Position numbers and translations under genes: made by a program. Below the pieces are notes generated by a model, which had not been told where the DNA came from, ran no database searches, and worked only from the letters and a program-made list of their open reading frames with translations. Below, in pieces: positions 9,756-50,980 of a DNA stretch of 64,000 nucleotides. The DNA is from an uncultured Clostridiaceae bacterium. Lineage in GTDB: Bacteria; Bacillota; Clostridia; TANB77; CAG-465. How positions within the stretch are numbered: position 1 is the first letter of the stretch; the number at the start of each line of letters is the position of its first letter. Where the stretch lies: positions 1 to 64,000 of the forward strand of contig CANCXL010000007.1 in the NCBI GenBank assembly GCA_947381905.1, written 5' to 3'.

Positions 9756-9784
9756 TTGACATAATATGTACATGAGTGTATAAT
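9756..9784 (+). promoter_or_regulatory. Consensus sigma-A promoter for the gene at 9872
   Basis: TTGACA (9756-9761), a 17-nt spacer and TATAAT (9779-9784), a full consensus match. It leaves a leader of about 80 nt. Confidence 0.85.
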
Positions 9785-29033: not shown

Positions 29034-29047
29034 CGAACTTTTGTTTG
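29034..29047 (+). promoter_or_regulatory. LexA operator 1 (CGAAC-TTTT-GTTTG)
   Basis: Matches the Gram-positive SOS box CGAAC-N4-GTTYG and overlaps the -35 of the lexA promoter. It would allow LexA to repress its own gene. Confidence 0.85.
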
Positions 29048-29073
29048 ACAATAAAAAAACGATATGGTATAAT
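29045..29073 (+). promoter_or_regulatory. lexA promoter
   Basis: TTGACA (29045-29050), a 17-nt spacer and TATAAT (29068-29073), fully consensus, with operators at both ends. Confidence 0.9.
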
Positions 29074-50424: not shown

Positions 50425-50454
50425 AAAGAGCAGTCTTTTAATGACTGCTCTTTT
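50425..50454. terminator. Hairpin between the RluD-like and 84-residue genes
   Basis: An 11-bp stem AAAGAGCAGTC/GACTGCTCTTT with a 7-nt loop. T tracts are short on either side. It could end the minus-strand transcript of the 84-residue gene. Confidence 0.55.
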
Positions 50455-50475: not shown

Positions 50476-50504
50476 TTGACACGTTAGCCTTAATGTGATA
50501 TAAT
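50476..50504 (+). promoter_or_regulatory. Perfect plus-strand promoter pointing into the 3' end of a minus-strand gene
   Basis: TTGACA (50476-50481), 17 nt and TATAAT (50499-50504). No plus-strand gene follows for 600 nt. A terminator-like AGTCT/AGACT hairpin with T5 lies at about 50532-50552, so the product would be a roughly 40-nt RNA antisense to the end of the 84-residue gene. Confidence 0.6.
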
Positions 50505-50529
50505 TATATCTGTAGAGGTACTTAAAGTT

Positions 50530-50784
50530 TTAGTCTTTTAAAGACTTTTTAGTTTCATTAAGTAAGTCTACCATAGAAGATGCACACCACGCATCTTCTT
50601 CTTTTATTTTATCTAAAACGTAATCTAATTGCTCGTTTATTTGAGTAAAACGTTTTCTTCTTTGAGAACCTTTGCATAAAATTGCACAAATTCTTTCAGA
50701 TTCAATAAAAGTAAAGAAAGCACTAGTGTCTAATACAAAGACACCATACAAAATATCTAATAAGTATTCTTTCCCCATAAGCAT
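50530..50784 (-). CDS. Hypothetical 84-residue protein with a long structured leader
   Basis: Starts MLMGKEYLLDILYGVF; middle ERICAILCKGSQRRKRFTQ is basic, and the C-terminal 40 residues form an acidic helix. No family recognised. The SD AGAAAGGAGA on the minus strand is excellent. Its leader of about 160 nt can fold so as to hide this SD. A perfect promoter on the opposite strand fires toward its 3' end. Confidence 0.65.
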   Translation of the reverse strand: MLMGKEYLLDILYGVFVLDTSAFFTFIESERICAILCKGSQRRKRFTQINEQLDYVLDKIKEEDAWCASSMVDLLNETKKSLKD

Positions 50785-50785
50785 T

Positions 50786-50855
50786 CTCCTTTCTATAATC
50801 TACCAAGTATTAACATAGGTGATAATCTATATATTTTATAGATTATATAAAGAAG
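50786..50855 (-). promoter_or_regulatory. Candidate translational switch upstream of the 84-residue gene
   Basis: In the minus-strand RNA, the 17-nt segment from 50855 to 50839 (CTTCTTTATATAATCTA) can pair with the 17 nt from 50802 to 50786 (TAGATTATAGAAAGGAG), which contain the SD: 16 of 17 positions pair, one as G-U. The same segment also takes part in a competing perfect 10-bp hairpin (50837-50846 with 50822-50831). The two folds exclude each other, one masking and one freeing the SD. Confidence 0.6.
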
Positions 50856-50900
50856 GTTAAGTGTCTTTGCAAAACTTTATTTTAAACTTAAAATAACAAC

Positions 50901-50924
50901 AATTTAAAGTAGTTACTTTAAATT
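50901..50924 (-). promoter_or_regulatory. Perfect palindrome in the leader
   Basis: AATTTAAAGTA-GT-TACTTTAAATT, 11-bp arms with a two-base centre, located about 20 nt after the expected transcription start of the 84-residue gene. Could be a protein-binding dyad or an RNA hairpin. Confidence 0.5.
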
Positions 50925-50950
50925 CAAAATATAAGAGTTTGCCTAACATA

Positions 50951-50980
50951 ATTATACCATTTTTTGAGTATAAAATTCAA
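50951..50980 (-). promoter_or_regulatory. Promoter of the 84-residue gene
   Basis: On the minus strand TTGAAT (50975-50980), an 18-nt spacer and TGG-TATAAT (50951-50956, extended -10). The leader to the ATG is about 160 nt. Apart from this promoter and the leader elements, nothing gene-like was seen in 50785-51060. Confidence 0.6.

Follow-up and report, generated by a model that had tools for sequence, protein, structure and literature searches.

The minus-strand leader with a masked ribosome-binding site (RBS) that had been described in the analysed window (the whole stretch of 64,000 nucleotides) belongs to a unit of about 560 bp that runs from a promoter to a terminator and is repeated in the genome, a context that the preliminary description had missed. 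The unit carries the leader, a small open reading frame (ORF) and a convergent antisense RNA gene, and by membership it is a candidate for, and probably works like, a type I toxin-antitoxin system. Whether it represents a new type I family, whose toxin would be cytosolic, helical, and about 80 amino acids long, encoded in about 7-9 chromosomal copies of one species and silenced by an upstream anti-SD fold together with a 3' antisense RNA, stands in our estimate at even chances. The type I assignment is favored by the repeated and partly tandem unit, the convergent antisense gene, the coding ORF, the predicted SD occlusion, one copy that may be antisense-only and parallels in the literature. 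Against it stand the uneven SD masking, the small number of closely related copies, and the protein, which is acidic, 80-83 amino acids long, without a convincing membrane segment, and unmatched by known relatives or folds.

A protein search with the 82-amino-acid product recovered the ORF five more times in this 1.7-Mb genome, and a profile search added a seventh, partial copy. DNA searches with the leader and the body of the unit located six sites (C7, which holds the window copy, C8, C14, C27, C41, and C45). The units on C8 and C14 are in tandem, and contig ends truncate several copies; the copy number in the genome is estimated at about 7-9. Homology across the aligned copies extends from the -35 element of the sense promoter to just past a terminator-like hairpin. 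The sense promoter (TTGAAT-N18-TATAAT with TG before the -10 element; 50951 to 50980, minus strand) predicts a transcription start near 50945, and its elements (TTGAAT or TTGAGT, and TATAAT) recur in six copies, where 16-18 nt separate them. The 3'-terminal hairpin of the unit (50425 to 50453, minus strand) showed five compensatory pair changes among the copies and is the probable mRNA terminator. Searches of over 1,100 other genomes, drawn from the genus, family, order, class, and phylum, revealed no relatives of the unit, and scans of contig collections, viral contigs, phages, and plasmids likewise gave none.

The window copy lies between two divergent genes whose starts are 58-172 bp apart in several congeners, indicating that the unit was gained at this site. 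In two congeners (L076:2241-2831 and L075:1013-1501), the interval between the same flanking genes is occupied by different sequence, about 500-600 bp long and in each case with a possible small ORF, which suggests that the site accepts insertions. A small mobile or repetitive element, the RNA folds of which serve its own spread while the ORF is a passenger or helper, would fit both the dispersed and tandem intergenic copies, which are adjoined by ordinary chromosomal genes, and the occurrence of the same site in relatives without the unit. This explanation is improbable, since the limits of the unit coincide with a promoter and a terminator, the ORF is under selection, and common terminal repeats were not apparent by eye; protein and domain searches and a check of the neighbourhood detected no transposase-like domain and no transposase or mobile-element gene in the unit.

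The leader of the window copy is about 165 nt long (50779 to 50945, minus strand), and its identity is 83-85% over nearly the full length in C8, C27, and C45 and 78% in C14. The segment from 50855 to 50839 (CTTCTTTATATAATCTA), the anti-SD strand of the putative masking helix, can pair with the SD side from 50802 to 50786 (TAGATTATAGAAAGGAG, with AGGAG at 50790-50786) at 16 of 17 positions, including one G-U pair. The competing hairpin between ATAATCTATA (50846-50837) and TATAGATTAT (50831-50822) is a perfect 10 bp, and TAGATTAT is present twice in the leader; letters, positions, and pairings were thus all as the preliminary description had given them. That description had also required transcription to begin upstream of 50839, which agrees with the start near 50945 predicted from the sense promoter.

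When the folding check that it had proposed was run, the SD-masked form was the minimum-energy state of the window copy, with a mean P(unpaired) of the SD of about 0.03. Opening the SD region by constraint cost about 6 kcal/mol, and the alternative 10-bp hairpin (50822 to 50846, minus strand), which would free the SD, then formed. The leader fold reached -43.8 kcal/mol, compared with -24.1 +/- 3.7 kcal/mol for shuffles (z -5.3), and much of this excess stability was due to an upstream AU-rich hairpin that was absent from the earlier account. With the upstream sequence shuffled, the SD was hidden equally well in just 5 of 200 leaders. The 16/17 complementarity was the highest at any SD+ATG start found in the 64-kb window, and 7 of 2000 shuffles reached the same value; the leader is A+T-rich, and such pairings are just moderately rare.

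The AU-rich hairpin lies at the 5' end of the leader (50879 to 50930, minus strand) and has two exclusive forms, a long helix of 19 bp (arms 50930-50912 and 50897-50879) and a competing local hairpin of 10 bp within it. It is preserved in the paralogues via G-U changes, and the local form shows A-U to G-C double changes. A further leader segment, CAAAGACAC (50861 to 50869, minus strand), is complementary to GTGTCTTTG (50744-50736) inside the ORF; both are invariant in every copy that has them, and in the consensus fold their pairing closes the SD domain.

Comparison of the leader helices was confined to four to five related copies, a small and closely related sample. The pairs of the SD helix were kept among the paralogues at 16, 13, 13, and 11 of 16 positions, whereas the alternative hairpin was shortened or broken, down to 6, 6, and 8 scattered pairs. 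Compensatory changes, which the preliminary description had expected in both helices, were not seen in the SD helix among these paralogues, the copies being too similar for such changes to decide on it, and the alternative hairpin was degraded. The predicted masking, strong in the window copy, was partial in C8, C45, and C14b (a helix over most of the SD, with a mean P(unpaired) of about 0.25) and weak in C27, in which the SD is mostly open and pairing is confined to the bases just upstream. The C14b leader (L053:4507-4736) contains an insertion of about 60 nt with a second SD-like AAAAAGGAGG, and AAATTC is duplicated in its 5' hairpin. From these models we conclude that RBS occlusion is a general tendency of the copies and that a two-state sensor is unsupported.

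The SD-masking leader of the earlier proposal holds for this copy, but neither the paralogues nor Rfam support its switch that would sense a ligand or temperature through two conserved states. A translational riboswitch, a thermosensor, or a switch controlled by a trans-acting sRNA in the leader would account for the two exclusive folds of the window copy, about 6 kcal/mol apart, and for the good conservation of the leader. We regard it as highly improbable, since the alternative hairpin is not conserved, the masking differs by copy, and the leader lacks a conserved pocket-like junction. Covariance-model searches of Rfam at gathering and relaxed thresholds gave no meaningful match to a known riboswitch or RNA thermometer class, in line with the earlier remark that the leader resembled no familiar class. 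Moreover, the leader occurred solely with the repeated unit in DNA and pattern searches; a leader-pattern match in a Chloroflexi contig was attributed to chance.

The ORF (50530 to 50778, minus strand) comprises 82 codons and a stop, with an SD-to-ATG spacing of 7 nt and a start that is backed by the paralogues. The omega values were 0.40-0.49 when C7 was compared with C41 and C8, 0.10-0.33 between close copies, and 0.4-0.9 against C27, with 1.46 for one partial pair (C27-C14a), and gaps within the ORF were in-frame among the copies. Because of these values and the in-frame gaps, the ORF is judged from its substitutions to be coding and under purifying selection, as expected of a type I locus. 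A large structured non-coding RNA, suggested by helices that extend through the ORF and the untranslated regions (UTRs), was ruled out by the codon-like substitution and the in-frame gaps. The proteins of the units are acidic and 80-83 amino acids long, and with a maximum 19-residue hydropathy of 0.35-1.63, most of them lack a convincing membrane segment; they thus differ from the short hydrophobic membrane toxin that is usual, not universal, in type I systems. The protein is predicted to be all-helical. Its single-sequence structure model was of low confidence (pLDDT 60) and gave no significant match in the PDB, and protein and domain searches revealed no known family or relatives. A match to Pfam DUF6382 (E 0.0025) fell below the cut-off and appeared in one of five copies only, and protein matches in relatives were diacylglycerol-kinase-like proteins of chance similarity.

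The 3' region of the unit is better conserved than the ORF because it serves as a promoter on the other strand. This antisense promoter (50476 to 50504, plus strand) reads TTGACA-N17-TATAAT, and TGTG precedes its -10 element. TTGACA at a spacing of 17 is identical in all six copies retaining the 3' region; as the -10 element, four of them have TATAAT and two TATACT, and part of the spacer varies freely. An intrinsic terminator, a G+C-rich hairpin followed by T-rich sequence, lies about 70 nt past the predicted start, inside the ORF on the opposite strand (50575 to 50609, plus strand); it is kept in 6/6 copies with the 3' region, and in C27 two pairs are altered on both sides, as compensatory changes. 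By its sequence, the unit thus has a cis-encoded antisense RNA gene with its own promoter and terminator overlapping the mRNA. We infer from this arrangement that an antisense RNA of about 100 nt is produced (50511 to 50609, plus strand), consisting of a long stem and the terminator and covering the start of the 3' UTR and the last third of the ORF; it is predicted to be strongly folded in every copy. In the 64-kb window, three consensus promoters were found against 0.19 expected. The two others, full-consensus sigma-70-type promoters on the plus strand, are located at 9756-9784 and 29045-29073. Loosely matching antisense promoters were also found in relatives, and most of them drive ordinary downstream genes.

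The C41 copy has lost the sense promoter, the leader, and the start codon and retains the antisense promoter and terminator; it is a possible antisense-only locus. Immediately upstream of this copy (G000:C41:640-1110, L056) lies a tRNA gene, whose anticodon was read by eye as CAT, together with the terminator of that gene.

The same RNA arrangement could instead keep a multi-copy regulatory or defence-related protein low, in which case the unit would be an antisense-controlled small gene and its product no toxin. The soluble, acidic, helical protein and the divergence of the copies, with omega of 0.4-0.9 between distant ones, agree with such a role, but small, lineage-specific loci that occur in several copies, with an mRNA that masks itself and an antisense RNA that converges on it, otherwise typify type I systems, and we consider the non-toxic role somewhat unlikely.

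If the unit works as a type I system, the mRNA would fold so that the SD pairs with the upstream anti-SD, the leader-to-ORF helix closing the same SD domain, and little translation would follow. The 10-bp hairpin would be the first to form during transcription, leaving the SD free until the masking helix takes over, and would be at most a transient folding state. The antisense RNA, whose stronger promoter lies in the 3' UTR and whose end falls within the ORF, would pair with the final third of the mRNA and silence it, most likely through RNase III decay, like RatA and SR4/SR5. At lower levels of the antisense RNA, mRNA that had survived or refolded would be translated into the presumed toxin. 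Control by an sRNA was thus the nearest of the readings offered earlier, but the predicted antisense RNA covers the 3' end of the mRNA and not the leader.

Type I systems are short and lineage-specific and hence escape homology searches. A candidate toxin family would be gained with a unit that occurs in several copies and combines a clear antisense gene with a coding ORF and an mRNA that masks itself. Repeats with convergent consensus promoters offer a route to discovering such loci, and leaders that mask the SD may be taken for riboswitches.

Pairing of the SD with an anti-SD, which makes the primary transcript non-translatable, is described as a hallmark of type I loci (PMC6733600). The unit resembles aapA/IsoA and hok/Sok in this pairing, predicted here most strongly for the window copy, and in the competing transient hairpins during transcription (PMC6733600); however, its anti-SD lies upstream in the leader, its extra hairpin would free and not hide the SD, and 3' processing finds no sign in the unit. 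Most type I toxins are hydrophobic and shorter than 60 amino acids, and the cytosolic SymE and RalR are exceptions, the only cytosolic type I toxins named in a review. The unit shares with symE/SymR and ralR/RalA a soluble protein and antisense control (predicted here), but the antisense position differs and no sequence relation was found.

Some type I families are multi-copy. The ldr/rdl and ibs/sib loci of Escherichia coli are paralogous promoter-to-terminator units, some of them tandem, in which every small ORF is accompanied by an antisense RNA of its own. The zor/orz loci of E. coli are built in the same way (PMC11264685), and the unit is like them in this respect; ldr/rdl, ibs/sib, and zor/orz differ from it in antisense position, protein size, and protein character. 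The C41 copy is comparable to the antisense-only orz loci in E. coli (PMC11264685).

The toxins of Bacillus subtilis are shorter (BsrG 38 and YonT 58 amino acids), BsrG being hydrophobic, whereas the protein of the unit has 82 amino acids, is acidic, lacks a clear membrane segment, and shows no sequence relation to them. In bsrG/SR4 and yonT/SR6 an overlap of the 3' ends is the rule (PMC8309996, PMC5848175), and the unit is like bsrG/SR4, bsrE/SR5, txpA/RatA, and yonT/SR6 in that a convergent mRNA and an antisense RNA of about 100 nt, predicted here, overlap at their 3' ends (PMC5848175, PMC8309996). The bsrG message is likewise structured, with its RBS obscured (PMC5848175, PMC8309996). The unit also matches Gram-positive type I loci such as bsrG/SR4 and txpA/RatA in its multiple copies, its restriction to one lineage, and its SD self-occlusion, which is predicted to vary in strength among the copies.
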